A DNA stretch of 64,000 bases from Pegea sp. RAD2-039 (Eukaryota > Chordata > Thaliacea > Salpida > Salpidae), in contig JAQGEQ010000071.1 of the NCBI GenBank assembly GCA_034620365.1, positions 2,604,001-2,668,000 of the forward strand, in the 5' to 3' direction. Below the pieces are notes generated by a model. That model was not told the origin of the DNA and did not search any database. It saw only the letters and a list, made by a program, of their open reading frames with translations. Shown here one piece after another: positions 5,748 through 51,991 of the stretch. Both the position numbers and the translations under genes were made by a program. Within the stretch, counting starts at the first letter, position 1. Each line of letters opens with the position of its first letter.

Positions 5748-5756
5748 TATCTTCTT

Positions 5757-5828
5757 TCCTCGTTAGTATAGTGGTGAGTATCCCCGCCTGTCACGCGGGA
5801 GACCGGGGTTCGATTCCCCGACGGGGAG
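5757..5828 (+). tRNA. tRNA-Asp (anticodon GTC)
   Basis: A 72-nt cloverleaf nine bases after tRNA-Ile. TCCTCGT (5757-5763) pairs with ACGGGGA (5821-5827), with discriminator G at 5828. The D arm GTTAGTATAGTGGTGAG and B box GGTTCGATTCC are standard. The anticodon stem CCCGC/GCGGG encloses loop CTGTCAC, with GTC at 5790-5792. Its 3' end lies 52 bp from the stop codon of the giant minus-strand gene. Confidence 0.97.
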
Positions 5829-27000: not shown

Positions 27001-28520
27001 ATGGAAGTTTTCCAACGGCTAGTAAAAGCTATTGCTAGTATCTTTCGGTGTGGAAAGCGTGAAGAAGACCAACGAAATGAAACATTAGATGATACGTCAA
27101 GTGACAAAAAACAATCAGGTACAAATATAAATGTTTAAGAAAAATATTACACTTTAAGTATTGCTATAATTAAATAGTATTTACATTTGCACAATCTTTG
27201 TTTTTAAGTGCTAAAAACTTTGGCGAAAGTCTCTGTTACAAAATCTCATTTAAGAACTGCCAGTCAAAATGATAAAGTTCAAGACATGATAGAGAACATG
27301 AAAAACATAAAAGTTATAGAAAATCAAGCCTCAAACTCGGTTGAAGCTGGCGATACAAGCTTATTAGACATGTTTGGATGTTACCAAACAAAAGTCAAAG
27401 ACATAATTACCTTGAGTGAAAATATATCATTAACATCAACAGAAACAAATTTGTCTAATGATTTAGACAAATTTGGAATAGTGAAAGACAAAAATTACTT
27501 TGGAGAATTTTGGAATAAAATACAACAGATAGAACGTTCTTTTAGTGAGAATTTATTAAATTTAGATGTCAACGACAACGAAAATAATAATCCATTTAGC
27601 AAAGAAAAAGAACCAGCTGATGACAACGATATTCAGGTGAAAGTTGATGCTATTAATTTTGTTGTATTTTGAATTATTAATAAGTATTAAAAATAATAAG
27701 GTCAGTACAAGAACTTGTGAATAATTCACTTCACTAAATAACAAATTTGCTTGCCTGAAAGTTAGAAAAATGTTATTTATTGATAAATATATAAAATCTC
27801 CTAGTCTTGATTATTGATAAATTTGAGCTGATTTTTTAACTTAAAAAAATGAATTCATTAATAGATATTCCAGTTTTTCCTACAAGTTTCTAAGACTCTT
27901 ATTGTATTTACTTTCATGAAAACTTTATCTTTTTTAGCTTGTATATTATTAAAGCATTTTACTTATCCTAGAATAGTTCTCCGAAAAAGAAAAAAGTTCA
28001 ATTATTCCCACGCTAGAAGGCTTAAAATCATCAATTAGAAGAAACTCAACAGAAGCCAAAACATCGTTGATAAAAGCGAAGTATATAAATCAAATTCTAA
28101 AGACTGTTGCCAACGTTACTATTTCTATATTCTAGAAAAAACGTCAAAATTTTGCTTAATCGACGAGTTCGCTGGCATCATGATGTGATGATGAAAGAAA
28201 AAAACGATCAAGAACGAAAATATGATTCGTCAGCAAAAAACAAGAAACTACCAAGAGTAGAAGAAGAAGAAGAAGATGAAAACTCTGATAGTAATAGTTC
28301 TGATTCTATTGAGGTTGATAATAAGAAGTCACAGAGGTCAGCGAGTCGCAGAGGAAGTAGCAGAAAAAGAGGGGGAGGAAGAGGTGTTAAAAGTAGAGCA
28401 AGAAGCCCAAATAGAGGGCGAGGGAGAGGTAAAGTTAGAGGTAGGGGTAGGGGCAGGGGCAGGGGCAGGGGTAGGGGTAGGGGTAAACGAAGAAGCCAAA
28501 GTAGGTCGAGAAAAAGATAA
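27001..28520 (+). CDS. Arg/Gly-rich nuclear-type protein, unrecognised
   Basis: Four exons, 27001-27118, 27209-27636, 27977-28080 and 28136-28520, join in phase to give 344 residues. The protein starts with an amphipathic MEVFQRLVKAIASIF and continues with an uncharacterised Asn/Glu-rich middle. An acidic run follows (EEEEEDENSDSNSSDS), then a long Arg-rich tail with about ten GR/RG dipeptides and a final SQSRSRKR. RG/RGG tails typically bind RNA or are methylated by arginine methyltransferases; that role is inferred from composition only. Intron 2 has two acceptors five bases apart. The upstream one (exon from 27972) gives a short tail SSPKKKKVQLFPR and stop at 28014, the downstream one the RG form. 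I recognise no orthologue. Confidence 0.7.
28416..28488 (+). repeat. G-rich coding repeat (GGGGTA/GGGGCA), G-quadruplex candidate
   Basis: About eight runs of four Gs separated by TA or CA lie on the coding strand and encode the (GR)n tail. Four or more G4 runs with two-base loops satisfy the usual G-quadruplex pattern in DNA and in the mRNA. This is an extreme composition for such an AT-rich region. Confidence 0.85.
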
Positions 28521-29358
28521 AAGTGATAATTGGTGACAGTTTTGGGCAAAGAATTCAAAATCAAGTTAAAGTAATGAATAATTGATATGTCGTTTTGGTG
28601 GCTTTTAGTCATCATTGCTTATAAATGCATTAAAGTCAAATATGATCAAATATAAATTGTTTGTTGTTTTATAGTTTTTCTGTAAATTTTTTGTTAATCT
28701 GTTACAATGAAAGCTGTTTTCACTGAACTTAAAAGAAGTTTCAGTTCACTGTGAAGTTGGTTACAGCCTTGCAGAACGTTTACTAAAACGTTCATAGAAT
28801 TTGTAGAAGTGTCTTAGTCGATGTCTTCACAAGTAATTATATTGTTTAGTTGTCAACCTATGTTTGTTAATTAATAATTATAAATTAAACATGTGACTAA
28901 TTTTCATTCAATTTAGAATTCTTTTTTCTTGATTAGATAGCAAAAAAATATTATATTTTGTTAATCTTCTGTAATTAAAATTAAAATCATAAATTCAACT
29001 TTCCATGTTTGTTTATTTGCTGTTTTTTTATTTAACGCTGACTTCTTTTAGTTATGTTTTTTATTAAACACAAAACCTTTTAGAATTTTAAGTTTTCATT
29101 TATTTTATTCATAAAGGGTCCATGTTGACATGTATTCTTTGCTTTTATTGCAAGCTTTAAATAAATACAAAATTCAAGATGATTGTTAAGTCGTCCTTTC
29201 CCTAAAAATATATGAAAAAAATAAAGATGACTAAAAAACTACCATATAAATCAAAAATTTGTTGAGTTGTAAAAAAAGGTTTTACAAAGCTTTCTACTTG
29301 ACTTTTAAACTGGTAGAACAATTGTTTGAATTTATAATTAAAAAAAAAACATGGCCAA
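28521..29358. other. Intergenic between convergent genes
   Basis: AT-rich spacer holding the 3' flanks of the RG-protein gene (+) and the multi-exon gene (-). No further gene is seen. Confidence 0.6.
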
Positions 29359-32300
29359 CTACGTTTCTGCTATTGCAAATAGCTCATCAGTTTTTCCTTC
29401 TATGCTCGACATGCTTGATTCGCTTGATTCACTTTGCCTGAAAATATTTAGCAGCTCTTAACTATTTCTAAGAAACAACTTTTTTCAAACCCATCTTAGC
29501 TTAGATAGTAAAGCATTAGCAAAAAAACAAAATTAAAACAAAAAGTAAATTTATAATTGGGTTTTTGAATAATTGTTTAACCTTTCTCGGATATTTACTT
29601 CTTTCGGCAGTTTTATCTGGTTTTCTTTTGAATTTCTAATACATAAATTCTTAGTTTGTAAAAAATCAGCTTTATTTTAGAGTTTATAAATATGTACTTT
29701 TTAAATTAAGTAAATCAAAATGGTTACTTACATATTATTTTTTTCTTTAGTATTAGCTTCATTTCTAATCAATTAAAAAACAATTTATCATGCTTTTCTA
29801 AATTCTTAATTTACAAAATTAACTTATTGAGTTATCAAACTACTTCAACTTTTTGAAGAAAAATTTGAAAATCAGAAATAGAAAATAAAGAACTAACAAA
29901 TTAGCTAACAGACTACCTTTGTAAGAATGTTCTGAAAAAATAAAATTAGTTCAATCATTTGTTTAACTCGGTTAAAGAATAATTACTTAAATAAGAAATC
30001 GAAGTCTGTAAATGATTTTCTTTCTTGTGGACCTGCAGTGGATGATTGACTAAAAAATTCTACACTTAATATCAAAAAATACAAAAATTAAAATAAAAAA
30101 AATCACTTACTCAGAATTATCTGTTGGAAAATATTTTGTTCTGAAAAAGATTAATTAGTTTAAGCTTTTTATCTACTATATTAGAAGACATATTAACAAA
30201 TAGTTTGATAATTAAAAATAAGTATCCAAAATCAATGGCAAGATAAGCAATCTCTTTAGATTTTGAATCTTATTTATAAAGAAAATCTTTTAAAACTAAC
30301 AGTTACTTTCAAATAAGTTTTTGTTTCAATTACGATATAACTTTTTTAATGATGTTAAATTTGAAAGTTTGTTTTGATTTTATTCATCAATAATAAGCAG
30401 ATTAAACTCAAATAAAATCATTTTTTATAGATTTAATAAATCTAATAATGTCACTTACTTCAACCAATGTAGAGATTTTGAATTTCTGTAAATATTTTAC
30501 ATACATTAGTTATTCATATATTATTAGCAATATTATTTGCTAAAATTATTTATCTAAAAGAACTTAAAACCTCAAAATTTTAAAAGATAATTCATCTTGA
30601 TTACTATCTTTATCTTTAACTTCCTTTTTTTCACTTTTTACTCTGCATTAAAAATTAAACAAATTCGTCAACTAATTCTAAGCTCTAAAATAGAAAACCC
30701 AAGTATCTTTTTTAAAACTGAAATGTTAAATCTAATTATTAATATCATTCTTATTAAAAATATAATAAGAGCTTATCTATACAAAGAGACAAGTTTAAAT
30801 TTAACAGACAAGCGGAACAATTTAAAAGTTAGATATTAAAAGCTTTTTATAATGAAACAGGCAACATAAAAACACAAAGTATTAATTTTGAAAACAGACT
30901 ACTTTCTATTTACTAAATTACTTCATTCGATTTTTGATAAAAGCTTCAAACGATTTAATTTTTAAGTAGACCTTTTTTATATGACAGAAAGCAACAAGGA
31001 CAAAAATTATTGCTTAATAAAACATTTTATCAAGTTAGTAAAACATATTTTATTTCATAACCTTTGTTAGTCATCTGTTTGTTTTAGTGTAATATAAAAA
31101 TGATAAATAAAAGTAGTTTAGTTATAATTGAAATAGAGTAGCAAAATAAAGTTAGTAAAATTGCAAGGATAGTTTATGACATTTTGAATTGAAAAACTGG
31201 GTTCACAAATTTGTATGCGGAATAAAAAGGTATTGTTTAAATCAAAGGCTTTGCAGTTTAATAATTTGTTTAAGTGAATAATAAAGGTCGAATGAGTAAA
31301 TTTACATAACAAAATAAATTTGGACAGTTTAAGACACTTTTCGACTGAAACTATTTATTTGATAGATTTACTTTAGATGAAAATTAAACCAAAAGTATCA
31401 GTTGAATATCATTACAGAAATTATTCGTCAAGAAAAAAACTTTAGACATTAAAATCTATAACTATACAAAGATGCATAATATAAAGTTCTGTGTCGAATA
31501 ATTCCTAACTCACATTCTTCTGAAAAGTCTGAAAAAGATATTTTTATTTAGTTTATAAATATGAATTAGTGTAATCTCTTTGTAGAACATAAAAGATTAA
31601 TGAAAAAGCTAGCTCGATTGATTAAGAAACTTCATATGGAAATACTTTTAATTAATCGAATAACAAAACTAATTAAGAAATCGTGTCTTAAAAACATAAT
31701 CTTTTATCAGTAGTCGGTTGATCAAAGAGTTAATATGAGAAGCAGCTACAAATACTACAGTTAAAGATATACCTACTCAGGTAAATTCGCAGCTGCGGCT
31801 TGTAAGTGACTTTTTGATTTTATGTCTGATGTACTTCTTAACAAAATTCACAAATGTTTTAAACAAGACAACGAGAACAAATACACGCAACAAACAAAGA
31901 GAGTTCAAACTTACTCCGATCTATTTGAAGAGTAAGATGATCTAAAATGATTATTTACAGTTTTATAAGATATTATACAAAAAAAACTTTACTTTGAAAG
32001 TTTATTTGAAGCAGATGAAACTTCTTCATCTTCATCTTCTTTTTTATGGTCACTAGATCCATTTTTTGAATATCTATACATACAGAAGTATATTAAGATC
32101 ATTATTAAAGCTACACAAAAGTACTTGAGAAGTTATTGATGAATTTTATCACTAATTATTTTAACTATACTAACGTAGGGACCTATTAAAAAAATAAAGT
32201 AGAAAATATATGCTGTAATTAATTAAACTGTGTTCCTCATCAAACCATGAAATATTTTAAAAAGAAATTCGTCAATTATTAAAATAATTTGAAAATCAAT

Positions 32301-35300
32301 AAACCCTAAATAGTTTATTTTATTTATCAACTGAAAAATGTTTAGTTTTTTTTACAATACTTGTTACAAACTTTGAAACAAATTATCAATAGCTTTCTTT
32401 ACAAGATTTTTTTCTTTATGGTTTACTTGTAGCTATAAATAATGTTTTATATAAAATTGAAATTTAGCTTACTTTTTCTTGAGAACTCTAAAAAAAAATA
32501 ATTTAAGTCACAAAATTTCTATAGCATGTAAAGAAAGAAAACTTTTAAAATATTTTAATTATTAAAGCCCAATGATATAAAAGATATGAAATAGGATAGA
32601 ATAAAATTTATCATAACTCCTTTGATATTTAAAAAATATTATTTTCAATTGAGCATTAAAAACGAATATTATCTATAAACCTATTAAACATAAAATAGTT
32701 GCTAGAAAATAGTTTTTAACAAGTCTGAGTTTATCAAATAAAACGCTATAATTTCATAAAAAAGCATGACATAAAAATGACTTACTTTTTTTTGAAAAAT
32801 CTGAAAAACATTAATTTCAAAAATATCTATTTCAGATAAGATAAGATCAAAGTTACAAATTTTATGAAATATTTACCCAGATAAAGATCTAGCCGTAGTA
32901 TGCAAATAACTCTCAGATTTTTTGTTTGATGTACTTCTAAACAAAATTATCAAATATTTAAAACAAGAGAAGAAAAAACAAAAAACTTCCCAGACTTACT
33001 CTGATATATAAGAAGATTTTGAAGATCTAAAATATAGAGTATAGCTTAGTATCTTATTGTTAGAAACTTTTTAAAGACACTTCTTACTTCAATGGCTTGC
33101 TGGTAACAGGTGAAATTTCTTCTTCGTCATCATCTTCTTCATCATCACTAGAATCACTTTTTAAACTTCTGAATCAACAGATTTATATTAATATCTAGAT
33201 CATTATTTTAGTAACAAATAAGTTGTTGGTGTAATATACGATAGTAATATGGTTACCGCATTTCCTTAAAAAACATTTCAGTTTTTTAATTTCGATTTGT
33301 AATTACAAAAAGTTTTAATATCTAAGTAAGATTTAACTTACCTTTTTTTGAAAAACCTAGAAAGAAAAATATTCTAAATTAATATTTTTCCCATTGCAAG
33401 TAATAATGAAACAGATAAAAAAGAAAGAGTACTTACCCAAAAATTGATTTAGACTTAGGTTGTTGACCAGCTTTTGATACAACATCTGAAGTACTTTAAA
33501 ATTGAATATTTTAAACAGCTTATACTCAAATATGGAATTGAAATATAAAATAATAAAACTTACTTCAAAACTGCAGCAGATTTTGAATTACTGTAAATTA
33601 TTTATTTCAATTAAAATGATGATAGCAATTCATCGGAATCAAATATCTATACATTAAAATTTACCTAGCCATAGCCAAAGGCTTTTTCTTATTAGTTTTA
33701 TCTTCATCTGTTTTCTTGATGTCCTCATTTTTATTTAGTTTTTCATTTCTTAAAAAAAATGCAACAAAGATAATTTTGGATTATATTTCAGTTTAATTTT
33801 TATTATAAATAATATTAAGTTGTAGATTTTTCGAATCTCGTATAAGAGTTTCAAATTTAATTCTATATCATTTAATAGTTTATAAGACACTTTTGTTTAA
33901 GAAAATGTTTATACTTTGAACTTGTGTTGACACCAATAAGGCTCTTGTTATTATCTTTGTCTTCAACTTTTTTTTCATCTTCACCTTCTTCACTATCCAC
34001 TGTGGGATTTTTTCTTTAATGAAATAAATCAATAAGAAGAATTAAATCTAATTTAAGTGATTCTTCTGCATTTTATTAATTTTCCAAAAGTTCACTAATT
34101 TCTAGCAAACAAGCGGGTTTGAAATAAAGTTGATTATATTTAACAATTTGAAATTATTATCGTCACTTAACATTGCTTATATTGAAACTCGAATATTAAT
34201 TTTGAATTAATTTATAACAAAATTATGATAATAAAAAAGTAATATCTAGCTTACTGTTTCTTGAAAAATCTATAAAACAAAATTGTTTAAATCATTAGCT
34301 TTGTATTGTCTGATAAAAATTGGATATAAAAGTGTTCCCAAAATTATTTACCCAACTATTGATTTGAATTTTGATTGATGGGAAACTTTAGATTTATCAT
34401 CTGATGCACTTTAAAAATAAATAGTTTTTTTTTTCGAGTTGAAATCATTTAAATTTAAAGAACTAAAACGTACTTCAAGGACTCAGCCGATTTTGTTTTT
34501 CTGTAAATTAATAGAATTACTTATTAATTTGATTTAATCATTTCCTAGACAATAGTTTTATCTTTAATATCTAAACTTATAACTTAATTTCTGAAAATTA
34601 GTATATAAAGTAAATAGAAGATACTTATTGACTAAAAGTAATTTTATTGTTTATTCTTTTCATTAAACGATAGAAATTGTTAAAGTAAAAGAACCAAATT
34701 GGTAAATTGAATTCTATTTAAGTAGTTTTCAACAGTTTTTTGCTTTTTGATTATTTATTATTTGTAAAGTTTAACTTAATAGCTGTAAAGATTTTATCAA
34801 ATACCAAAGCTTCATTTATCTATAAAAAATTTTTACTTGAAAGTCTTTTTAGAAGAAACAGATCTTCCATTAATGTTTTTGTCCTCATCATCATCATCTT
34901 TATTATTTGTTGTTTTTTTTCTTTGTTAAAACAACAAAAATGGTTAAAACAGATCAAAATTAAAATTAAACGATAATAATTCATTGCATATAATTATTTT
35001 TGTAATAAAACTTAGAGTTAACTAACTAGAAAAAGTAAATTTGACTTTAAATAGAATAGTATTTTAAATATTTCTATAAACTTCGTAGTAAGATCATAAG
35101 TTTAAAAAAAGCTTTGATCTAGATGCCTGCTTTATGAACTTTTCAATAAAAAATTTTTGTCTTACAAAAGATAGCTAGTTACCTATTTTTCAAAAATCTG
35201 AAAAAGAAATACAGTTTAATACATAGAATTTATATTTGTAAATAAGAGGTAGATAAAATTGCAAGAACTCCGTACCCAAATATCGATTGAGTTTTGGATT

Positions 35301-38300
35301 TATACCTAATTGTTGAGTTGTCATTTAGTTTTCTGTTGGATAAAACAGGTTTTAGGAAAAATATAATGACTAATAAATTAAAGAAACAAATAAACTTTAA
35401 ATGTAAATTTAATTGCTGTTAACAAGAAACTAAAATTAATTTAGACATGCCTAATCAAATATATTAAAAAATAGTTAAGTAGAGTATTTTGTAAGTTAAA
35501 TACAGAAAATTAACCATTTTATAGACTTGAAAAATTATATTTTAAACAATTTATTACAAGTTTGTTGAAATTTTATACTTTTTAATCTTATTATCAGTTT
35601 TTGAGCTTTTATTTTGTTTCTCATCTTCATCACTATCTTCAGAGTCTTCAGAATCTTCATTATTTTTTTCTTCTCTTGCCCTTAATCTTATCACAATTTT
35701 ATACTTTTTAAAAGTTTATTAAAATACTTTATCATTAAAATATTTTGAATTGATTGCTATATCATATATATGTAAGTATATATTATTTCTTTTAAAGACA
35801 GGTTTTTAATTCATTTTGAATCTTTTAGAGCAAAATAAAAAAATTCAACTAATTTTTAAACTGCAATCAAAAGTGATTCATCTTTAGAAATCAGTTTCTA
35901 CTTACTTCTTCTTAAGAAACCTTTAAACAAAATTTAGCTGCTTATTATTTTTTTTTCAAAAAAGTTATATGAATAGAAGTTTCCACAAAGCTTACCCGAA
36001 CAAAAAACTTTTTTTCGCTTCTGGTTTTTCTAAGACTTGTGATTTACTTTAAAATAAAAGTTTCAAATTGATACTTAACAACTTAAGTCAGACTAACTAC
36101 AAATGTTTCAACTATTAGTATGAAATATTCGTTTATTATTATCTATTATAGTTTTATTATCAGTTAAAATAAAGATTTTACCTTTTAATCTTATCATTAG
36201 TCGTTGATCTTTTACTCTTCTTTTCATCTTTATCGCTATCTTCAGAATCCTCGCTGATTTCTTCATTTTTCGCCTGCTGCCTTTATTAAAGAATCACAAA
36301 TTTGAATTTAGTTAAAAAAAAGTAAAATAAAGTTCTTCCAGTTGATTACAAATGATAATCTTTGGAAAAAGATCTTTGTATAAAAATATGACATGTAAAT
36401 CACCAACTAGTTCTATAAGTTAACACAACTTACCTCGATAAAGATTTGCTTATCCATTTCTGTTTAGATCCCAAATTGTTATCTGATTTGCTTAAAAAAC
36501 ATTTAAAGAATAAATTTAGGAAAGTAGAGTTTTAGTTTACTCGTAGATTAAAACTTAGTTGGTTATTGGTTTATAGAAAAAGTTTGACTATTTAATACTT
36601 TTTGTTTTACTTCATTAAAATATTGATTTTAAATTAGACGTATCATATTTAGTAACTATTTTTATATAAAAACATTATATTATTTGAAATCTTTGTTTCA
36701 ATCCATAATAGTCATATATTTATGATTTAAAAAGAGCATTTAATTGCTCTTGTAAATTGAAATTTTTATTCAATATTCAAAATTATTTGCTAATTTGATA
36801 GTTCGTCAAAACTAAATTTCAAAATATAACTTTTAAGTTTCCTTTTTGTGTTTTAAAACTTTAAATGAATACTTACACAGCCAAAGAACTTTTTTCTGAC
36901 TTCAAGTTTGTTGTGGATTTTGTATCTTTATCTGGTCTACTGTTGAATAATTTGTGGTAAAATTTGTTTATTTTTAAATATAAATCTTTTAAGAAATCAA
37001 ATACCGTTTCATCTATAATTTTAATATAAATAACAAAAACTAAATAAAGTCTTTAAAAATTAAACATGTGTTTATATAATACCCACTTTGATACAGAGCT
37101 GATATTTTTTTCTGAGTTTACTTTAGTATTTGATTTTGTATCTGACTTTCTATAATATAAAACTCCAAATAGTTTAAAGTTATTATAATCAATAATAACA
37201 TTTTTTATAGTGATTGGTTATTATCATTAGAAAATTGTAAGTAGGTTATTTAGTAATTCAATCAATTTATTTATAAAAGTTAATTCTTGGAAATCTTGTC
37301 TACTAATTTGATAACTAAATTATAATAATTCTGAATTTAAAGCATCTAGACTTTTTTGGATTTTAGAAACTTATCTTAAGAAGTTATCAAAAGATATTAG
37401 TATTAACTGTTTAGTTGAACTCTTCAAATTGCTTGATGACACCTAAATAGTAAAAGTTTGTCAGAATAAAATATAGATTAAGTATTTGATGCGCTTATCA
37501 AAAAAGATGAAAACAAAATTATTTAATTGTTTTTTATAGATAGATTTTTAACATAAAATAGTTAGTATTACAAATTTTTCATTTTGACTTTTAGTTAAAT
37601 ATTTCAAGTTTTGACAGTTTTACAAACACATCGTATTTATCGTATTTTTCAAATCTAGTGCTCGGTTCAAATATTGATTAAAAAATATTTTATTCAAATT
37701 TTAGAAATCGATTTCACTAAAACTTTTAACTGTCAATAATCCGAAAGCGAAAAAGATTAGATTTGTTTTTATAGCTTGAAAAATGATAAAATTGGTTTAA
37801 ACAACTAATTTTCTTACTTTATCTGTTGAAGTATTCTTTTTTCCTTCATTTTTATCCAAAACTAAATCACATACTTTTTTTGAATTACTAATATTTTGAT
37901 TTTAAGATATAATGTAAATATTACCTGAATTTGTTGAATCACAATCTATATCAGCTGTGTAAAAATTTAAGATTGCAAATGGTTCTTTCGTTTGTTTGTT
38001 TTCTACTATCACATTTACTGTCGATTTGTCTTGTTTCACTTCATCTTTTGATTTTGTTGTGAGCTTTTTTACTTTCTGAGTTATGTTTGAAAGTTCTTCA
38101 CAAGTCTCATACTTTCCAGCAGAGCTTTCTGAAGTTGATCTTACGGTTTTATAAGTTAGATCATCTTCACTTGATTCATTAGCCACAAAAGATTTACAAG
38201 ACCTTTTACTTTTATATCTTCCATGATTGCAACTTGTTGAGCTCTGTCGATATGAAGAGTTAATTGACTCAAAATCTCTCAAAGAAAGAATGCTCTTAAA

Positions 38301-38417
38301 ATCTGATGTTGCATACGAACTCTGCTTCGTGACTCTACTTTGTATTTTTAAATAATTTAATGTTGAAACGAACACTTTAGATACGAGACCTACAATTTTC
38401 TTAAAAAAGCTTGGCAT
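29359..38417 (-). CDS. Micro-exon gene: 36 exons built from a repeated symmetric cassette
   Basis: No family recognised. About 741 residues from exons 37925-38417, 37818-37861, 37408-37442, 37087-37149, 36877-36939, 36434-36490, 36182-36280, 35996-36046, 35906-35920, 35579-35680, 35276-35332, 35183-35197, 34837-34920, 34474-34500, 34352-34408, 34255-34269, 33915-34013, 33665-33748, 33564-33590, 33437-33493, 33342-33356, 33088-33168, 33000-33026, 32877-32936, 32786-32800, 32474-32488, 31993-32073, 31915-31941, 31777-31836, 31514-31528, 30571-30642, 30459-30485, 30111-30140, 29987-30049, 29917-29931 and 29359-29437. Every intron from the third on is phase 2, so each internal exon can be skipped without frameshift. 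Eight exons are 15 nt, and several read GF(F/L)K(K/N); five are 27 nt. Acidic exons (72-102 nt, DSEDSEDSDEDE-like) alternate with Ser/Lys-rich ones. The N terminus MPSFFKKIVGLVSKVF is an amphipathic helix, not a clear signal peptide. Composition suggests a disordered protein. Additional tiny exons may have been missed. Confidence 0.72.
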
Positions 38418-38448: not shown

Positions 38449-38455
38449 TTTTATA
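38449..38455 (-). promoter_or_regulatory. TATA-like element before the micro-exon gene
   Basis: TATAAAA reads on the minus strand 32 bases upstream of the ATG at 38417. A start site 25-30 bases downstream would leave almost no leader, so either the 5' UTR is very short or the match is chance in AT-rich DNA. Confidence 0.25.
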
Positions 38456-40445: not shown

Positions 40446-41630
40446 AAAAACTCTTTCTTTTGTATTTCACTGTCTCTTGCTTTACTAGTTTCTTTGCATC
40501 CTAATCTGCTTGCTTTGATGTTTATTTATCCCTCATATCACATCCAGTATGGTCGTTTTCGGCCGAAGCAGGTCATTATATTATTATTAATTTTTGTAAA
40601 TATGTTAATTGTTTCTTGTTAGATGGAACCATTAAAATAATATTTCCACCATCTGTGGCGTATGCTTAGATGGCATCAATGATAGAAAAGTAATAGAAGT
40701 GCATGCACTGTGAAGCATGGTGCCTTAAATACTGATAAAAAGAACCCATTGGTCTCTTCTGACCTTCTCACACATTTGTGTAAAGACTGTGAAAGGATCA
40801 TCAAACTAAGTTAAAGTAGTTATGTTTTGGGGCAAAATTTTTGCTGAAATCAAAAACTTAGTTGAAAACTTCGATGAACTGATAAATGAGATGGAAGCTA
40901 TAAAGCTCCTATATGCTGATATGACTAAAATACTTTAAAGATTCAATCTGAAATGATTCATCATTCTGGTTAATCAAATTTTTGGAGAATAATTTAAAGG
41001 CTGTATACTCAAATGTCGATAAGCTTACCATAGTTTAAAACCTTTTTCTCGACTTCATCAATTTATTAAAATCTGTCAACTCTTTTAAATTCTTTTTATT
41101 ATAAATATAAATCAATAAATGATTAAGAATTTCGATCTTCATTTTCTTCACTTATTTTGATTCTTATTTTCGATACTACTTCTGCCTCTATATACTTTCG
41201 TATTTTTTCTGTATAAGCTTGAGTACCGAACATAGATACTGAAGATCATTTCAGGAAATCTTCATCATCTTTTCATTTAAATAAAACTAAGTCTGATAAC
41301 GGTGAGATATAAACTGCTAAACATAGATCTTTATTAATAAATAAAATAAAAAGTGCTTCCAAATAAATACTTCATCAAATTGATAAACTGAAAAGCATTT
41401 AGTTTAAGTAATTATTAAAAGATAAATATTCGAATAAATATTAGTTTATTTATTATCAGTTTGTTTAGTTATTTTAATAAGTATTGATATCGATCATTAA
41501 AAAAAATTCTTTAGTTTTAAATTTATTTTAAATTATGAAAAATGTTTAATGTAATTTGGTACTAGTTATTAGTTAGGGTAAGTACCACAAATTAGTTAAT
41601 AATTCAAACAATAACTCTTTATTGTGTTTA
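40446..41630. other. Spacer between LINE remnant and tandem array
   Basis: AT-rich, no supported gene. It may include the 3' UTR of the retroelement at its left edge. The right edge at 41631 is where homology to the tandem units begins. Confidence 0.55.
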
Positions 41631-41929
41631 TAGAATTTAACTTGTTTTAAAAAATAGAAGTTCAGAAGAAGTATTTTTGATTAAAAGATCTCCAAACGAA
41701 TTACAATTTAAAAGTAAAATAAATTTTAAACTCTTTTTATTCATTCTGTTTATTTTAAAACTACAAATAGTTTTGACACCAACACAAATATATTAAACAA
41801 AAAGACAACATAACAAGTTGTTAAAAAGATAACAAGAAGAAAATTTTAAATTGATTGATTTCAAACTGAGTTTTGATCATCAAATGTTAGAGCCTCCAGT
41901 GACATTAGAAAACAAATCACTTCATCAAG

Positions 41930-43996
41930 TTAGTACCTCCACCTTGGAGAATCCAGTTTGGACTTATTTGCTGAATTGGATGATAGAGGCGTTCTTGAAA
42001 GATGACGCAAAGGAGTCCTTGGTGATAGAGATCGGTTTATTGTTTTGAAGCTTTTTGGAGTTGAAGGTGTGAAAGTCTACAAATAAAAATATTTTAAGTA
42101 AAAAACTCAATAGAAAGTAATAATCAGAAAAAGTTTTTTAAAAATCAAAACTAAAAACAAATAAAATATTTAAATTAATAAAACATCAAAAACCTTCATT
42201 TTCAATTTCTTTTCTTTCAGTTGGATGATTTGTGCTTGAAGCTCATCATTCGAATCTTTGAGCTTCTTTTGATAATTCACCTTACTCATAAGATCTTCGT
42301 AGTTTGTCTAAACAACAAACAGAAGAAACAAATAATTATCAAACATAAAAAGTCCTCAGTAACCACATTGACATGATTGTAACATTCTACTCACATTCAT
42401 CTTTCAACAAATCAGGTTGCAATAAAGAGCAAGTTGTTAAATGTCAATTATTTCAATTTGAAATTATTTTAATCATTTTGATTGAAAGCTAATTATAAAA
42501 TTTTATTTTTATTTCTATAACTTTTCTTAAAATAAAAATCATTAAAAATTGTCGATCAGTTGTTTTAAATAAAAGTTGATTGTAATATAAGCAGATGTAT
42601 TAAGTTAACAAATTACAAACCTTTAAAATCATATTTTCAATTTGAAATCGACTACGACGAACATTGAAACTGCTCCTCTTATTTTTCAACCGTTGCAACT
42701 CTTTAGATTTCGATTTTAAATTTTCTTTCTCAGCATTCCAGCTCTCAATCAAAACCTGAAATTTAATTTCAAAATTAAATAAGAACATTAAAACCAAGAA
42801 TGAAAATTACTTTTATTAAAATTCATATCATAAAAAGCTTCAGTAAATATTTAGACAATATTGAAATTGAAAAAATTCTTCTATATATGCCAAAAAACTT
42901 AACTAAAGTGTTTTGATAAATTATTGACAAAATACAAATTATATAATCTTCTGGAAACAAGTTAGATGAAAGTTGTTAAAAATTGCAAAAGCAAAAACTC
43001 TGAATACCTTAATTTCGTTATCTAATTTCTTTATCAATTTTAAAAGTTCATTAGTATGATCTTCAACTTTAATTCTGTTTGTGAGGACCAGCCAAATAGC
43101 TCTATACTCCTCCTAATAAACACAAAATTAAAAATGATTAAGTAATGAATAATGATCATTAGATACACAAACTTGATTGTAACTAACCACTTATATCATA
43201 TACTCAACTTGCAAGTAAAATGAGTAAACTAAACAAGTTTCTAATTATTTTAAAACATCAAATAGTTACCAGCTTATCCTCATAATCTTCTTTATACTTC
43301 TCGACATCAGTTTGAAGTCTTTTCTTTTCATCTTCTACTAGTTGAAGATGAGTATTTTTCTCCTCCATTTTCTCTTCTTCAAGCTTCAAACTGTTGTTTA
43401 AATCCTGAGAATTTAAATTAAGAAATTAAAAAAGTATTTTCAAAAGAAATTTACAGATTTAACGAAAATACTTTTCCTTTCTATCAATAGATTAATACAG
43501 AAAGCAGTTTCAAATAATTAGTAACCCAAATATTCAACTATTTATCAATTTTTATTAATAAAAATATAAGAATCACTTTTGACAACAAGTTAGAGATTCG
43601 AGAGTAAGAATTTGGTAGAACACCAACCTGATTCTTCACTTCATAATCAGATACCAAATCTTTCAAGCTAAAAACTTGATCCTTCAAATCTTGGATCTCA
43701 GCTGCATTAGCATCATCATTAATTTGTTTTAGTTCCTTTTCTTGAGATATTTTAGTCGACTCCAATTGTTTTTCAATCTCTTCAATCTTCTTCTTCACAA
43801 TTCCATTTTCCTCTAAAAGGGATTTATGTTGATCACGCATTCTTTCAAACTTGCCACGTCTTCGTCTCTTCTTAGCAAGATCTCGTTGATTCAACTTCTC
43901 ATTACTTACAGATTCCTAAGAAATATAATCAAAGTGAAAATTGAATCACTTTAAAAAGAACAAACTTACCATCTGAGCTTGAGATGAAGAAAGCAT
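41930..43996 (-). CDS. Coiled-coil protein, array copy 1 (divergent middle)
   Basis: Seven exons, all in phase 0: 43970-43996, 43628-43915, 43270-43404, 43008-43112, 42621-42755, 42194-42307 and 41930-42076, giving 316 residues. A 27-nt first coding exon encodes MLSSSQAQM. Then comes a basic block (LAKKRRRRGKFERMRDQ), then about 200 residues of Glu/Lys/Leu coiled coil. The last exon is Ser/Thr-Pro-rich (TFTPSTPKSFK, SLSPRTPLRHLSRTP) and ends DSPRWRY. The TP/SP sites look proline-directed-kinase targets. Unlike copies 2-4, exon 4 (EEYRAIWLVLTNRIKVEDH) and exon 5 (VLIESWNAEKENLKSKSKE) are strongly diverged, and part of exon 6 reads LMSKVNYQKK instead of LLKKLGDEEK. Function unknown; a structural or cytoskeletal role is only a guess from the coiled coil. 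Confidence 0.85.
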
Positions 43997-44330
43997 TTTA
44001 GTTTCTAATACAAAACATTTGCTTTGAACAATCATAATTCTTATCAGCTTATAGAGTAACTCAATCAGCAAAACGAATCTTTACTAACTCTAAGATGTTT
44101 GAAGCAACAGTTAGATAATTATAGTTTAAAACAAAACAAGCTTTAATATTACTTAAAACAAATAATTTCTATTTTACATAAACGATATAGAAACTCTGAA
44201 TCAATAAGCTTAACCTAATTGCTCAATAAAAGAATAAAATTCTGAAAATATGAAGCCTGCATAAGAAAGTTTGGACAACCTATTCCTTCAAGCCAAATAT
44301 CAAAATGAACTGTTCAAAGCAGCGTCCATC

Positions 44331-44338
44331 TATAAATA
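44331..44338 (-). promoter_or_regulatory. Conserved TATA-like element upstream of the array genes
   Basis: TATTTATA on the minus strand (TATAAATA on plus), preceded by a short GC-richer patch, lies about 335 bp upstream of the copy 1 ATG. It recurs at 49367-49374, 54405-54412 and 59440-59447. Being part of a near-identical repeat, its conservation is weak evidence. It could also face the plus strand, where I see no gene. Confidence 0.35.
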
Positions 44339-44399
44339 CCCGAGTTTTACGCATGAATGAATTCTTAAACTTTTTCTTTTTCTTTTTAAAATCGTTTGC

Positions 44400-46656
44400 A
44401 AGAATTAAACATTTTCTAAATCTACTCTTTTATTAAAAATTTAAACATGAAATGTTTATTTAAGTATTATAAAAAAATAGATTTTTAAAATAAACATCTT
44501 TTCAAACATCTAAATAATGATTAAGGAATACATTATCACATTTTAATTGAATAATTTTCAACAAAGAAATCTGTTTTATTTTAACTTAGATATTTTAATA
44601 ACAATTAAGATATATTTCAGCCTGGTCATAAAGTATGTCCTGGTCCATTTCTAACATTAACTGAAATTTATCAAAATATTTCGATTCTTACTCAATGTTG
44701 CATCATATAAAAAGAATAATTCCACCTTCTTCAAACTATCTCTGAGTCAATTGTACAAATATCAGATCTCTATTAACCTTATTGTGATAATTTTAAAGAT
44801 AGAAAGAAGATAAAATAATAATTTATTTTTATCCTAAATACATTTACAAAAATATTCTGTAATTTTGCAAATTGTTTAGTTTTCTGTTTGAAAAGTTTGC
44901 AAATAATAAATATTATTTGGACTTTTGATGGAATTATTAACAATTTTAGACAAACATGTTTTCGGTCACATCAAAACTAAAATAATTCCGAAAATTTTCT
45001 ACAAATTTCTATTAAAAAAATAATATTTTTAACTAAAAAGTAGTAAAATATACAAAATGTTTAGAAACTCAACTATTTATTTTCACAAATATAAATTATA
45101 TATCATATTCCGTTTATTAATATATTTGAATCAATATTTTTCAATCAAGCGTAAAACTGATGACCCAAAAATTCTCTTTTACAGTTTGCTTCGTTAGTTG
45201 GTCTAAAATGGCCGATTTCGCGATTGGAGCGTTCAAGAAGTAATTTTATTCAGAAATGTCATCAAAATAAGAAAAACTGATTTACAATTAAATTGTGAAA
45301 TATTCTTTTATAGATTCATCGTGAACAACTAAATTATACCAACTAAGTTTTGAATCGATTTTGATTTTAAAAAAGAACAAATTATACTTAAAAATTATTT
45401 TTTATTTTTCGAAAAGTAAAATACGAATCATTCCATTTTTGCATAAAGTCATTTATGCTGAGTCATTCAATCATCTAAATTTGGAATTAATCTATCAAAT
45501 AGTAACTTTAAACTGAGTAACTATTATTTGAGTTCTGCTTGAAACATTTTCACAACTTTCCATGTTGATTTAGTGACTCATCACCTTAGTGACGTATTTC
45601 AAGGTAAAAATTAGTTTGATTGACAGATGTGTTTCGATTCACCAAAAATCTCTTCTTTAAAACATAGATTTTATCATATAAATGTTGAAGAAGATAAATG
45701 AAGGATTTTAAAAACAATTTGAAATATATCTCTTGTTATTTATATCTAAAGTTGTTAAAATTTACTAAAACCAAATTTTGTTATCTGTTGAGATGATCTT
45801 AATATTTGAATAAACAAAAATAGAACTTTTACTTAAAATTAACAAACAAAATATTGTTATGATTGTATTTCTTGTATAAACATTTTGTATAAAACTAATT
45901 TTTAGAAAAATATTTGCTACAAACAAAAACGTCTAAATCTGTAAAAAAGGATTTATAAGATCAATTGTAGTAAATATTTGTATATAAATCAATCACAAAA
46001 GTATTGAAAATTTACTCTTCTTTAAAAGTGAAATTTCTCTACTTTCTACTCAGCTATAAATAGATTGTTTGTAATGTTTTGCTATAATCGACATCGGCCA
46101 GACATAATTTGTTGGCTTACAAGTATTATTCACCTGTTATACTGAAATTTAAATATATAAATAACTGCTGTGACAAGTAATAAGAAAAACTAAACTGGTA
46201 AGATTGATTTTGCATCAATCTGATCTTCTGCTTTAAGATTGATCCGATTAAAATGTAAATTTCTCAAATAGTCGGATTATTTAAGATTGCAATACTTATT
46301 TAGATGTAATAATAGAAGGAATGTTCAGTCCAATTAATCATGACTCTTCGTAAAACTCAATTTAATTAAAAACTTAAACTTTTTTAATAATCGGTAAATA
46401 ACCTCCTTCAAATTTATTGAAGATTAGTTTAATTTTTGTGGACATCTTTTGATGATTTGAGATTTTGTCATTGATATTTAAGATCAAATTAACTAACTGA
46501 TACTTGATTAGAAATTATTTTTTAGTATTTGCTTTATAGTTTGGTGTCTAGACTAATTATGTTTGTTTTGACGACTTTCATTTATATTTGAAAACTTTTA
46601 GTTTTTTCTTCTAGTTTATTCTATATCTTCAAACAATTACTACTTTTGCTCCTTTT
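44400..46656. other. Intergenic spacer of the array unit (also 49440-51694 and 54480-56731)
   Basis: About 2.3 kb per unit with no open frame preserved among copies and no RNA gene recognised. Short GC-richer islands (for example around 45210-45240 and 46085-46130) are kept in all copies but are not coding in any frame I can read. Confidence 0.5.
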
Positions 46657-46953
46657 TAGAATTTAAAAGTTTTAAAGATAGAATTTCAGAAGAAGTATTT
46701 TTGATTAAAAGATCTCCAAACAATTTACAATTTAAAAGTAAAATAAATTTTAAGCTCTTTTTATTCATTCTGTTTATTTTAAAACTACAGATAGTTTTGA
46801 CACCAACACAAATATATTAAACAAAAAGACAACATAACAAGTTGTTAAAAAGATAACAAAAATAAAATTTTAAATTGATTGATTTCAAACTGAGTTTTGA
46901 TCATCAAATGTTAGAGCCTCCAGTGACATTAGAAAACAAATCACTTCATCAAG

Positions 46954-49032
46954 TTAGTACCTCCACCTTGGAGAATCCAGTTTGGACTTATTTGCTGAAT
47001 TGGATGATATGGGCGTTCCTGAAAGATGGCGCAAAGGAGTCCTTGGTGATAGAGATCGGTTTATTGTTTTAAAGCTTTTTGGAGTTGAAGGTGTGAAAGT
47101 CTACAAATAAAAATATTTTAAGTAAAAAACTCAATAGAAAGTAATAATCAGAAAAAGTTTTTTAAAAATCAAAACTAAAAACAAATAAAATATTTAAATT
47201 AATAAAACATCAAAAACCTTCATTTTCAATTTCTCTTCTTTCAGTCGGATGATTTGTGCTTGAAGCTCATCATTCGAATCTTTGAGCTTCTCTTCATCTC
47301 CTAGTTTTTTCAAAAGATCTTCGTAGTTTGTCTAAACAACAAACAGAAGAAACAAATAATTATCAAACATAAAAAGTCCTCAGTAACCACATTGACATGA
47401 TTGTAACATTCTACTCACATTCATCTTTCAACAAATCAGGTTGCAATAAAGAGCAAGTTGTTAAATGTCAATTATTTCAATTTGAAATTATTTTAATCAT
47501 TTTGATTGAAAGCTAATTATAAAATTTTATTTATATTTCTATAACTTTTCTTACACTAAAAACGAAACAAAAGTTTTATTATATTTAATAAAATATATTT
47601 TTTAACAAACCAAACTTTCAAAATAAGACATGTCACACCTTTAGGATCTTATTTCTGGCTTCATAATCTTCGATTTCAGATGAAAGTCTTTTGATATCAC
47701 AATCAACATTTTGTAACTCTTTAATTTCAGATTCTAATTTTTCTTTTTCAAGATACAAGTTGTTATTCAGCTTCTGAAATTTAATTTCAAATTGTTAAAA
47801 AGATTAAATTATTTTACAAAAAGTAGAACTTATAATTAATTCTTAAATAAATTTCAAAAAAGCTTTTATAGATATTTCGTTAGTATCATTCACAATTATT
47901 TTAGAGAATTTATTTTTTCAATGAATATTAATCATCGTAATTAGACTGATGTGATAGATAATTGGAAATTTAGAAATTTATACAACTTATCTAAAAGAAA
48001 ATTATTAATTAAAAAGTAATCTGACAAATATCAAAACATTACATACTCTTTTCTCTTCTTCTAGTTTATTAACCAATTCACGAAGGTCGGTATTATATTG
48101 TTCAAGTTCCTCTTCATCTTTAACAAACAACCAGTGAAATCTGACTTCCTCCTAAATTAAGGAAAAAAACAATTAATTAAATAATGAATAGTGAACAGTG
48201 GGTAGAAAAGCTTGATTACAACTAACCATTTATATTATTTATTTATTTATAAATTTAAAAGTAAGATAAACAAGTTTTTGATATTTTTAGAAAATTGAAA
48301 AAACCTTTATATCCTCATAATCTTCTTTACTTTTCTTGACATCAGTTTGAAGTCTTCCCTTTTCATCTTCTACTAGTTGAAGCTGAGTATTTTTTTCCTC
48401 CATTTTCTCTTCTTCAAGCTTCAAACTGTTGTTTAAATCCTGAGAATTTAAATTGAAGCAATTAAAAAAGTATTTTCAAAAGAAATTTACAGATTTAACG
48501 AAAGTACTTTTCCTTTCTATCAATATATTAATACAGAAAGCAGTTTCAAATAATTAGTAACCCAAATATTCAACTATTTATCAATTTTTAAAAATAAAAA
48601 TATAAGAATCACTTTTGACAACAAGTTAGAGATTCGAAAGTAAGAATTTGGTAAAACACCAACCTGATTCTTCACTTCATAATCAGATACCAAATCTTTC
48701 AAGCTACAAACTTGATCCTTTAAATCTTGGATCTCAGCTGCACTAGCATCATCATTAATTTGTTTTAGTTCCTTTTGTTGAGATATTTGAGTCAACTCCA
48801 ATTGTTTTTCAAACTCTTCAATCTTCTTCTTCACAATTCCATTTTCCTCTAAAAGGGATTTATGTTGATCACGCATTCTTTCAAACTTGCCACGTCTTCG
48901 TCTCTTCTTAGCAAGATCTCGTTGATTCAACTTCTCATTACTTACAGATTCCTAAGAAATATAATCAAAGTGAAAATTGAATCACTTTAAAAAGAACAAA
49001 CTTACCATCTGAGCTTGAGATGAAGAAAGCAT
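46954..49032 (-). CDS. Coiled-coil protein, array copy 2
   Basis: Same seven-exon, phase-0 structure and 316 residues: 49006-49032, 48664-48951, 48305-48439, 48047-48151, 47639-47773, 47218-47331 and 46954-47100. Exon 4 here begins EEVRFHWLFVKDEEELEQ and exon 5 begins KLNNNLYLEKEKLESEIKE, the form shared with copies 3 and 4. The C-terminal exon differs from copy 1 in having SGTPI for SRTPL. Exon 2 carries small replacements (EEFEKQLELTQ). All splice sites are GT-AG and no frame lesion is seen, so the copy looks functional. Confidence 0.85.
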
Positions 49033-51991
49033 TTTAGTTTCTAATACAAAACATTTGCTTTGAACATTCATAATTCTTGTCAGCTTATAGAGTAACTCAA
49101 TCAGCAAAACGAATATTTACTAACTCTAAGATGTTTGAAGCAACAGTTAGATAATTATAGTTTAAAACAAAACAAGCTTTAATATTACTTAAAACAAATA
49201 ATTTCTATTTTACATAAACGATATAGAAACTCTGAATCAATAAGCTTAATCTAATTGCTCAATAAAAGAATAAAATTCTGAAAATATGAAGCCTGCATAA
49301 GAAAGTTTGGACAACCTATTCCTTCAAGCCAAATATCAAAATGAACTGTTCAAAGCAGCGTCCAGCTATAAATACCCAAGTTTTACGCATGAATGAATTC
49401 TTAAACTTTTTCTTTTTGTTTTTGAAATCGTTTGCAAGAATTAAACATTTTCTAAATCTACTTTTTTATTAAAAATTTAAACATAAAATGTTTATTTATG
49501 TATCATAAAAAAATATATTTTTAAAATAAACATCTTTTCAAACATCTAAATAATGATTAAGGAATACATTATCAAATTTAAAAGGAATAATTTTCAACAA
49601 AGAAATCTGTTTTATTTTAACTTAGATATTTTAATAACAATTAAGATATATTTCAGCCTGGTCATAAAGTATGTCCTGGTCCATTTCTAACATTAACTGA
49701 AATTTATCAAAATATTTCGATTCTTACTCAATGTTGCATCATATAAAAAGAATAATTCCACTTTCTTCAAACTATCTCTGAGTCAATTGTACAAATATCA
49801 GATCTCTATTAACCTTATTGTGATAATTTTAAAGATAAAAAGAAGATAAAATAATAATACATTTTTATCCTGATTACATTTACAAAAATATTCTGTAATT
49901 TTGCAAATTGTTTAGTTTTTTGTTTGAAAAGTTTGCAAACAATAAATATTATTTGGACTTTTGATGGAATTATTAACAATTTTAGACAAACATGTTTTCG
50001 GTGACATCAAAAATAAAATAATTCCGAAAATTTTCTACAAATTTCTATTAAAAAAATAATATTTTTAACTAAAAAGTAGTAAAATATACAAAATGTTTAG
50101 AAACTCAACTATTTATTTTCACAAATATAAATTATATATTATATTCCGTTTATTAATATATTTGAATCAATATTTTTCAATCAAGCGTAAAACTGATGAC
50201 CCAAAAATTCTCTTTTAAAATTTGCTTCGTTAGTTGGTCTAAAATGGCTGATTTCGCGATTGGAGCGTTCAAGAAGTAATTTTATTCAGAAATGTCATCA
50301 AAATAAGAAAAACTGATTTACAATTAAATTGTGAAATATTCTTTTCTAGATTCATCGTGAACAACTAAATTATACCAACTAAGTTTTGAATCAATTTTGA
50401 TTTTAGAAAAGAACAAATTATACTTAAAAATTATTTTTTATTTTTCCAAAAGTAAAATACGAATCATTCCATTTTTGCATAAAGTCATTTATGCTGAATC
50501 ATTCAATCATCTAAATTTGGAATTAATCTATCAAATAGTAACTTTAAACTGAGTAACTATTATTTGAGTTCTGCTTGAAACATTTTCACAACTTTCCATG
50601 TTGATTTAGTGACTCATCACCTTAGTGACGTATGTTAAAGGTAAAAATTAATTTGATTGACAGATGTGTTTCGATTCACCAAAACTCTCTTCTTTAAAAC
50701 ATAGATTTTATCATATAAATGTTGAAGAAGATAAATGAAGGATTTTAAAAACAATTTGAAATATATCTCTTATTATTTATATCTAAAGTTGTTAAAATTT
50801 ACTAAAACCAAATTTTGTTATCTGTTGAGAGGATCTTAATATTTGAATAAACAAAAATAGAACTTTTACTTAAAAATAACAAACAAAATATTGTTATGAT
50901 TGTATTTCTTGTATAAACATTTTGTATAAAACTAATTTTTAGAAAAATATTTGCTACAAACAAAAACGTCTAAATCTGTAAAAAAGGATTTATAAGATCA
51001 ATTGTAGTAACTATTTGTATATAAATCAATCACAAAAGTATTGGAAATTTACTCTCCTTTAAAAGTGAAATTTCTCTACTTTCTACTCAGCTATAAATAG
51101 ATTGTTTGTAACGTTTTGCTATAATCGTCATCGGCCAGACATAATTTGTTGGTTTACAAGTATTATTCACCTGTTATACTGAAATTTAAATATATAAATA
51201 ACTGCTACGACTAGTTATAAGAAAAACTAAACTGGTAAGATTGATTTTGCATCAATCTGATCTTCTACTTTAAGATTGATCCGATTAAAATGTAAACTTC
51301 TCAAATAGTCGGATTATTTAAGATTGCAATACTTATTTAGATGTAATAATAGAAGGAATGTTCAGTCCAATTAATCATGACTCTTCGTAAAACTCAATTT
51401 AATTAAAAACTTAAACTTTTTTAATAATCGGTAAATAACCTCCTTAAAATTTATTGAAGATTAGTTTAATTTTTGTGGACATCTTTTGATGATTTGAGAT
51501 TTTGTCATTGATATTTAAGATCAAATTAACTAACTGATACTTGATTAGAAAATAATTTTTGGTATTTGCTTTATAGTTTGGTGTCTAGACTAATTATGTT
51601 TGTTTTGACGACTTTCATTTATATTTGAAAACTTTTAGTTTTTTCTTCTAGTTTATTCTATATCTTCAAACAATTACTACTTTTTGCTCCTTTTTAGAAT
51701 TTAAAAGTTTTAAAGATAGAAGTTCAGAAGAAGTATTTTTGATTAAAAGATCTCCAAACAAATTACAATTTAAAAGTAAAATAAATTTTAAGCTCTTTTT
51801 ATTCATTCTGTTTATTTTAAAACTACAAATAGTTCTGACACCAACACAAATATATTAAACAAAAAGACAACATAACAAGTTGTTAAAAAGATAACAAGAA
51901 GAAAATTTTAAATTGACTGATTTCAAACTGAGTTTTGATCATCAAATGTTAGAGCCTCCAGTGACATTAGAAAACAAATCACTTCATCAAG

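Follow-up and report, generated by a model that had tools for sequence, protein, structure and literature searches.

The bicycle family of aphids is named for its CYC motif. In its genes, small internal exons follow one another in long series, and almost every one is in phase 2 (PMC9168663). In the micro-exon genes (MEGs) of flatworms, about 80% of the coding region lies in symmetric exons of 6–36 bp and the products are nearly always secreted or membrane-anchored (PMC5825161), and the operational rule in the Hymenolepis genome study (PMC7653826) defines a micro-exon as shorter than 70 nt and divisible by three and asks for at least seven exons, half of them micro-exons, with a run of at least four. 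Here we describe a gene of small exons on the minus strand of a 64,000-nt window from Pegea sp. RAD2-039 (assembly GCA_034620365.1, contig JAQGEQ010000071.1, positions 2,604,001–2,668,000; coordinates below are those of the window). The middle of this gene, we conclude with high confidence, consists of one cassette of symmetric exons repeated seven times in tandem.

Exons were picked by hand on the minus strand and then positioned by script. The resulting chain runs from an ATG at 38417 to a TAG at 29359, has a coding sequence (CDS) of 2,310 nt (769 codons plus the stop) with no internal stop in that frame, and shows GT-AG borders at all 37 introns. The initial annotation had recognized this in-frame chain from the sequence but counted about 36 exons, where we rebuilt 38. 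Its first exon of 493 nt and its eight 15-nt exons were recovered (the latter are exons 9, 12, 16, 21, 25, 26, 30, and 35), as was its rule that exons from the fourth onward are multiples of three with phase 2-2, which applies to all 34 of exons 4–37; exons 1, 2, and 3 end in phases 1, 0, and 2. Its list of exon lengths (15, 27, 30, 57, 60, 63, 81, 84, 99, and 102 nt) was correct but incomplete, as exons of 33, 35, 44, 51, 54, 72, and 78 nt also occur and the last exon has 79 nt. The median intron length across the gene is 144 nt; donor position +3 is A in 32 of the 37 introns and position +5 is G in 22, and acceptor position −3 is T in 13, C in 12, and A in 12. The GC content is 30.1% in the CDS versus 20.8% in the introns, and 27.7% in a 120-kb sample of the genome (12 stretches). 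The least secure parts of the chain are exons 2–3 (the donor of exon 3 is poor), exon 31, and exons 33–37. The acceptor has two candidate positions 3 nt apart at exons 22 and 24, as the chain model showed, and at exon 29, as noted by eye. A second donor-like GT in exon 1, after 38019, likewise noted by eye, would give an in-frame junction to exon 3. A candidate 24-nt exon of phase 2-2 was also noted by eye between exons 6 and 7 (36350–36373, minus strand).

From an alignment of the encoded peptides we assigned exons to four classes, into which most internal exons fit. Class A exons are acidic and 72–102 nt long (exons 7, 10, 13, 17, 18, 22, 27, and 31); class B exons have 27 nt (exons 14, 19, 23, 28, and 32, encoding, for example, NSKSAAVLN), with none seen in cassettes I and II; class C exons have 51–63 nt (exons 8, 11, 15, 20, 24, 29, and 34, encoding, for example, TSDVVSKAGQQPKSKSIFG) and an end motif like KSKSIFG; and class D comprises the eight 15-nt exons, which encode peptides of the FFKK type. 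The order A(-B)-C-D is repeated seven times, an array with a 15-nt exon closing each copy that the initial annotation, correct about the symmetric chain of small exons, had missed. The irregularities are an extra class A exon in cassette IV, exon 33 between the B and C exons of cassette VII, and a stray class D exon (exon 26), which is perhaps the leftover of a cassette that was partly lost. Exons 4–6 probably belong to class C as well. In one test against chance, each repeated exon was left out in turn and searched for with a profile of the others of its class, being ranked among the non-training matches on both strands of the window. The omitted exon ranked first in 24 of 29 cases (five of eight in class A, all five in class B, and seven of eight in each of classes C and D), and first rank was missed by exons 17, 18, 31, 34, and 35; some first-ranked exons have poor E-values (0.39 for exon 8, 1.8 for exon 9, and 0.73 for exon 11). 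The features of the gene are as follows, with ranks being those of the leave-one-out search.

38450..38455, minus strand: TATAAA, possible TATA box, starting 38 nt upstream of the ATG; one of three such motifs in 283 nt
37925..38417, minus strand: exon 1, 493 nt, ATG at 38417; encodes MPSFFKKIVGLVSKVF...; possible amphipathic N-terminal helix
37818..37861, minus strand: tentative exon 2 (44 nt), phase 1 to 0
37408..37442, minus strand: tentative exon 3 (35 nt), phase 0 to 2; its donor, gttaat, is weak
37087..37149, minus strand: exon 4, 63 nt, C-like, phase 2-2
36877..36939, minus strand: exon 5, 63 nt, C-like; matches the C profile at E 0.0014 though outside the training set
36434..36490, minus strand: exon 6, 57 nt, C-like; weak C-profile match, E 0.46
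36182..36280, minus strand: exon 7, 99 nt, class A, acidic, cassette I; rank 1
35996..36046, minus strand: exon 8, 51 nt, class C, cassette I; rank 1, E 0.39
35906..35920, minus strand: exon 9, 15 nt, class D, FLKKK; rank 1, E 1.8
35579..35680, minus strand: exon 10, 102 nt, class A, cassette II; rank 1
35276..35332, minus strand: exon 11, 57 nt, class C; rank 1, E 0.73
35183..35197, minus strand: exon 12, 15 nt, class D, FLKNR; rank 1
34837..34920, minus strand: exon 13, 84 nt, class A, cassette III; rank 1
34474..34500, minus strand: exon 14, 27 nt, class B; rank 1
34352..34408, minus strand: exon 15, 57 nt, class C; rank 1
34255..34269, minus strand: exon 16, 15 nt, class D, FFKKQ; rank 1
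33915..34013, minus strand: exon 17, 99 nt, class A, cassette IV; rank 4
33665..33748, minus strand: exon 18, 84 nt, class A, cassette IV; rank 4
33564..33590, minus strand: exon 19, 27 nt, class B; rank 1
33437..33493, minus strand: exon 20, 57 nt, class C, ending in KSKSIFG; rank 1
33342..33356, minus strand: exon 21, 15 nt, class D, FFKKS; rank 1
33088..33165, minus strand: exon 22, 78 nt (81 with the upstream AG), class A, cassette V; rank 1
33000..33026, minus strand: exon 23, 27 nt, class B; rank 1
32877..32936, minus strand: exon 24, 60 nt (57 with the downstream AG), class C; rank 1
32786..32800, minus strand: exon 25, 15 nt, class D, FFKKK; rank 1
32473..32487, minus strand: exon 26, 15 nt, lone class D between cassettes V and VI, VLKKK; rank 1
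31993..32073, minus strand: exon 27, 81 nt, class A, cassette VI; rank 1
31915..31941, minus strand: exon 28, 27 nt, class B; rank 1
31777..31836, minus strand: exon 29, 60 nt (or 57), class C; rank 1
31514..31528, minus strand: exon 30, 15 nt, class D, LFRRI; rank 1, E 0.11
30571..30642, minus strand: tentative exon 31 (72 nt) of cassette VII, placed in class A by position; rank 40, weak donor (score −7.6)
30459..30485, minus strand: exon 32, 27 nt, class B; rank 1
30111..30140, minus strand: exon 33, 30 nt, B-like, tentative; weak B-profile match, E 1.5
29987..30049, minus strand: tentative exon 34 (63 nt), placed in class C by position; missed by the leave-one-out search
29917..29931, minus strand: tentative exon 35 (15 nt), TFLQR, placed in class D by position; rank 163
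29732..29764, minus strand: exon 36, 33 nt
29582..29635, minus strand: exon 37, 54 nt
29359..29437, minus strand: exon 38, 79 nt, TAG at its end
29144..29149, minus strand: AATAAA, possible poly(A) signal, the first past the stop; one of five such motifs in the 459 nt scanned

The exon chain is not a chance product. A cross-validated chain model with splice and coding terms (cost 5) was run on the locus and, for comparison, on 200 shuffles and on 48 stretches from elsewhere in the genome. With exons 21–38 as its training set, the model recovered 11 of the 17 exons 4–20 with a chain score of 132.2, against maxima of 17.8 in the shuffles and 11.9 in the genomic stretches; trained on exons 1–20, it built a six-exon chain in the region of exons 21–38, with 4 of the 18 exons exact and 2 more displaced by 3 nt at the acceptor, and scored 44.3 against maxima of 10.4 and 10.9, respectively. 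With splice signals alone (cost 3) the margins were narrower (21.5 and 29.0 vs. shuffle maxima of 13.3 and 11.3). A blind chain search with a generic splice model had returned just a two-exon chain, and searches at 9 bits per exon had returned chains of zero and one exon; as these settings were judged unsuited to AT-rich DNA, the search was rerun at lower costs. At the level of the genome (105.7 Mb in 387 contigs), a degenerate FFKK exon pattern modeled on these exons, AGNTTYTTYAARAARNNGTAAG, has three matches, all in this gene, the reversed pattern has none, and a narrower pattern has one, again in this gene.

Our codon comparisons point to constraint on the encoded peptides. These comparisons used ungapped exon pairs, because alignment of whole-cassette DNA misaligned the 15-nt exon where intron lengths differ (cassettes I/II and V/VI). 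The ratio of nonsynonymous to synonymous divergence (dN/dS) is 0.26 for cassettes III/IV and 0.40 for V/VI, with dS saturated for I/II, and pooling between cassettes gives 0.23 (proportions of synonymous and nonsynonymous differences, pS 0.60 and pN 0.24; 122 codons). None of 1,000 neutral simulations had as few amino-acid changes, and substitutions at codon positions 1, 2, and 3 number 35, 31, and 57 of 131 each (chi-square p 0.001), an excess at position 3. For the 15-nt exons alone dN/dS is 0.18, a value drawn from 84 pairwise codons in seven of the eight exons, with non-independent pairs. We infer that the cassettes diverged while sparing amino acids, that is, under purifying selection. 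This selection and the run of 38 exons with neither stop nor frameshift speak against a decaying pseudogene, or an over-read chain of which part of the exons are used, a reading that the five leave-one-out failures among 29 repeated exons and the weak support of exons 2–3 would favor and that we regard as highly unlikely.

The arrangement of the introns bears on how the array arose. The start-to-start spacing between cassettes III and IV is 910–915 bp for the B, C, and D exons, and that between cassettes V and VI is 1,085–1,100 bp for the A, B, and C exons and 1,272 bp for the D exons. Intron identity is 63% for III/IV, 62% for V/VI, and 52% for I/II, beside an exon identity of 69% for the first two pairs; that introns of neighboring cassettes can still be aligned fits copying together with introns, as in tandem duplication. 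The introns between C and D exons measure 75, 78, 82, 80, 76, 248, and 55 nt, and those following D exons 225, 262, 241, 176, 298, 399, 871, and 152 nt. Within cassettes, the 17 introns tested have a median of 75 nt, versus 251.5 nt for the introns compared with them (p 0.0008); this test omitted the introns after exons 7, 10, 13, and 17 (135, 246, 336, and 166 nt), and a hand count over all 21 within-cassette introns gives a median of 78 nt. We propose that unequal crossing-over would copy complete cassettes with their introns, with the reading frame kept because every exon starts and ends in phase 2, and that the array grew by such copying before the copies diverged under purifying selection.

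Tandem duplication stayed inside one gene, and no paralogue was found in the genome. All 22 matches of the protein to the genome at E up to 10, with 58 of 96 first-look candidates scored, fall inside this gene. For exon 1 the genome holds no further match at E up to 1, and the DNA of the gene matches itself and three short pieces of 48–61 bp on contig C6. Searches with the protein at E up to 1 returned no Pfam family, MARCKS included, and no PDB sequence, and two 31-residue peptides spanning C-D junctions had no PDB match either. A tandem symmetric micro-exon cassette gene is not described in the titles and abstract openings of the literature matches listed, a weak test of absence; equally weak is the test on rotifer micro-exons, where the matches listed, most of them not necessarily about rotifers, include no such gene.

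The genome contains catalase matches, in separate pieces, at one place on contig C21, two on C79, and three on C148, and parasitic flatworms are not known to have catalase; these matches leave the flatworm link of the initial annotation unsupported and make a parasitic flatworm an improbable source. The GC of the 120-kb sample falls within the 24.95–31.14% published for monogonont rotifer assemblies (PMC11954553), and the rotifer Brachionus plicatilis has exons averaging 175 bp and introns averaging 194 bp (PMC6555955), so that composition would suit a rotifer. A 40-base mlh3 pattern of B. manjavacas was absent at up to 3 mismatches, and catalase primers of B. plicatilis differ from the best sites in four catalase loci at 7–8 of 20 bases (forward) and 4–5 of 20 (reverse), which makes B. 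plicatilis itself improbable. A COX1 search of the genome returned nothing. For a set of 40 open frames (37 of the 52 with at least 90 codons in the 120-kb sample, plus 3 from the window), the Pfam matches listed, 25 of 34 families, look animal-like without pointing to one phylum; they include the peptidylglycine monooxygenase domains, SEFIR, SNAP, and ApaG/YccV. With flatworm MEGs the gene shares numerous tiny exons divisible by three, symmetric phasing, and the potential for in-frame skipping, but it differs in its highly charged product, its ordered cassette repeats, the absence of a paralogue from our genome searches, and the lack of a clear signal peptide. The last point agrees with the initial annotation and comes from a hydropathy scan of the N-terminal part only, in which the best 11-residue window (residues 8–18) reaches 2.0 and has a lysine within it. 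The resemblance to MEGs proposed there holds under the operational rule of PMC7653826, with micro-exons making up 26 of the 38 exons and a longest run of 6, and fails under the stricter description of PMC5825161, as the 15 exons of at most 36 nt make up 13.8% of the CDS rather than about 80%. On this strict feature we set aside a MEG as the identity of the gene, and the reading as a true flatworm MEG, encoding a secreted protein varied by micro-exon skipping, is in our judgment improbable.

An effector of the aphid bicycle/megacycle type, in which internal exons are almost all in phase 2, would account for the fact that 34 of the 36 internal exons begin in phase 2 with a mean length of 48.3 nt, as in the genes described in PMC9168663. 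This protein has only 4 cysteines in 769 residues and no gene family, is a charged repeat protein, and lacks a clear signal peptide, and the gene-structure classifier, computed with the coefficients printed in that source, gives p 2.3e-5 versus a cutoff of 0.72. The classifier thus rejects a bicycle gene as the identity, and the arthropod RR cuticle domain (PF00379) was not found in the genome in a search that had no positive control; we consider this reading extremely unlikely. The locus is best called a repeat-exon gene with micro-exons.

The predicted product is rich in serine (17.8%) and lysine (17.4%), is poor in proline (1.7%), and has 36% charged residues. Its mean hydropathy of 0.36 lies on the disordered side of the charge-hydropathy boundary of 0.43, and we regard it as probably a Ser/Lys/Asp/Glu-rich, intrinsically disordered protein. 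Most C-D junctions encode a patch like KSKSIFG-FFKK or RSLSG-FFKKK flanked by acidic linkers; the protein contains 21 [ST]xx[DE] sites and 31 [ST]x[KR] sites, the latter count speaking to the presence of sites only. The N-terminal 25 residues could form an amphipathic helix, as their amphipathic moment was equaled in 433 of 20,000 shuffles. We hypothesize that the product is a multivalent disordered chain in which each C-D junction would yield a Ser-Lys and aromatic-basic patch (S-K-S-I-F-G-F-F-K-K) amid acidic linkers resembling CK2 sites. The patches would bind acidic membranes, calmodulin, or another acidic partner reversibly, serine phosphorylation would tune this binding, the N-terminal helix would perhaps assist, and splicing may alter the number of patches or linkers with the frame intact.

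The model for such patches is MARCKS, whose effector domain (KKKKKRFSFKKSFKLSGFSFKKNKK, a sequence printed in six papers) binds acidic membranes and calmodulin reversibly under the control of protein kinase C (PKC) through serine phosphorylation. Both proteins have a charged Ser/Lys patch punctuated by phenylalanine beside acidic disordered sequence, and SLSGFFKKK of this gene resembles KLSGFSFKKNKK; MARCKS has one such patch, whereas seven or eight occur here. We are cautious about this analogy, by which MARCKS-like action of the patches is possible but on the unlikely side. The GFFKR motif of integrin tails was also considered as an identity and set aside.

Two further readings start from the same alternation of acidic and basic segments. 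Nopp140, treacle, and the PEVK region of titin are likewise encoded by tandemly duplicated symmetric exons that specify alternating acidic and basic disordered segments, but no shared domain was found in Pfam and here every repeat unit has a 15-nt exon as a constant part. The product might be a phosphoprotein of the nucleus or nucleolus, similar to Nopp140 or treacle, in which CK2-phosphorylated acidic segments (for example, SEDSEDSDEDEK) and basic segments from same-phase repeat exons gather nuclear partners, a reading that suits the 21 [ST]xx[DE] sites and the repeat-exon architecture of those genes. The conserved domain of that family was not found among Pfam families at E up to 1, the proline content is low, and a repeated aromatic FFKK core is not known from the family; we rate this reading as rather unlikely, and favor over it a multivalent membrane- or calmodulin-binding scaffold, itself a tentative proposal that falls well short of probable. 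An elastic or structural spacer like titin PEVK, a disordered spring whose length depends on repeat exons of one phase, fits the tandem symmetric exons as well. Because the protein has little proline, lacks folded domains at its flanks, and matches no Pfam family at E up to 1, we find this explanation improbable.

Symmetric phases have a simple consequence for splicing. Since exons 4–37 are all in phase 2-2, any subset of them can be removed with no frameshift, an arithmetic result in line with the frame-preserving design that the initial annotation proposed and from which many protein variants might follow. In leave-one-out scores, the splice sites of the 15-nt exons surpass those of the acidic exons at both the acceptor (p 0.010) and the donor (p 0.030), and therefore class A exons are the likelier variable ones if any exons are often skipped; that class A varies more than class D is our better guess from these predicted site strengths. 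Regulated skipping of some exons is conceivable, though we would put it at somewhat less than even. Bolder, and in our estimate improbable, is the idea that the 15-nt cassette exon would be the core of a repeated binding motif, so that one disordered scaffold would carry up to eight in-frame on/off switches of valency, in an animal that the analysis places as probably neither schistosome nor aphid.

Taken as a whole, a cassette gene encoding a multivalent scaffold of patches is our best explanation, and we hold it to be slightly more probable than not. Several observations weigh against it. Exon nucleotide identity is barely above that of introns in two of the three cassette pairs, C exons 11, 15, and 20 are under less constraint (dN/dS 0.48), and the D motif is degraded to LFRR and TFLQ in the final two cassettes. 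The top amphipathic stretch of the protein lies near residues 631–657 and not at the N-terminus. The N-terminal glycine that is the site of myristoylation in MARCKS is absent, the protein starting MPSFFKK; with MPS rather than MG at its start it has no N-myristoylation site of the MARCKS kind, and because Pfam and PDB gave no match the comparison with MARCKS is one of motif style only. The good acceptors of the 15-nt exons argue for routine inclusion over switching.

Elsewhere in the window, a unit of about 5,037 bp is repeated in tandem across 43137–60105 in an extensive array (self-match of 97.4% over 11.9 kb), with more pieces near 41603–42538; basic, coiled-coil-like open frames lie on the minus strand at 43538–43915, 48574–48951, and 58647–59024. 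A minus-strand open frame of 1,571 codons (9143–13858) has no Pfam match at E up to 0.1, lies in a stretch of raised GC (about 34–42%), and carries a 24-bp tandem repeat encoding RSNESLAS-like repeats. The plus-strand open frame at 28101–28520, with an RG/SR-rich C-terminus, is directed toward the end of the repeat-exon gene. At 4153–4515 a match to Pfam PF01866 (E 3.6e-18) marks a fragment of a protein of diphthamide synthesis, and two tRNA genes lie at 5674–5828.

Gene finders are likely to miss exons of this kind, as stated for micro-exon genes (PMC7653826) and for plant micro-exons (PMC8831610). With eight natural 15-nt exons in one gene, most of them clearly related, the locus offers material on how a spliceosome deals with exons whose length falls short of what ordinary exon definition needs. 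The shape of a MEG-type gene arises here through plain duplication of a small exon cassette, and the product looks like an intracellular disordered scaffold. That symmetric-phase duplication can give this shape suggests that it need not signal the secreted arsenal of a parasite.

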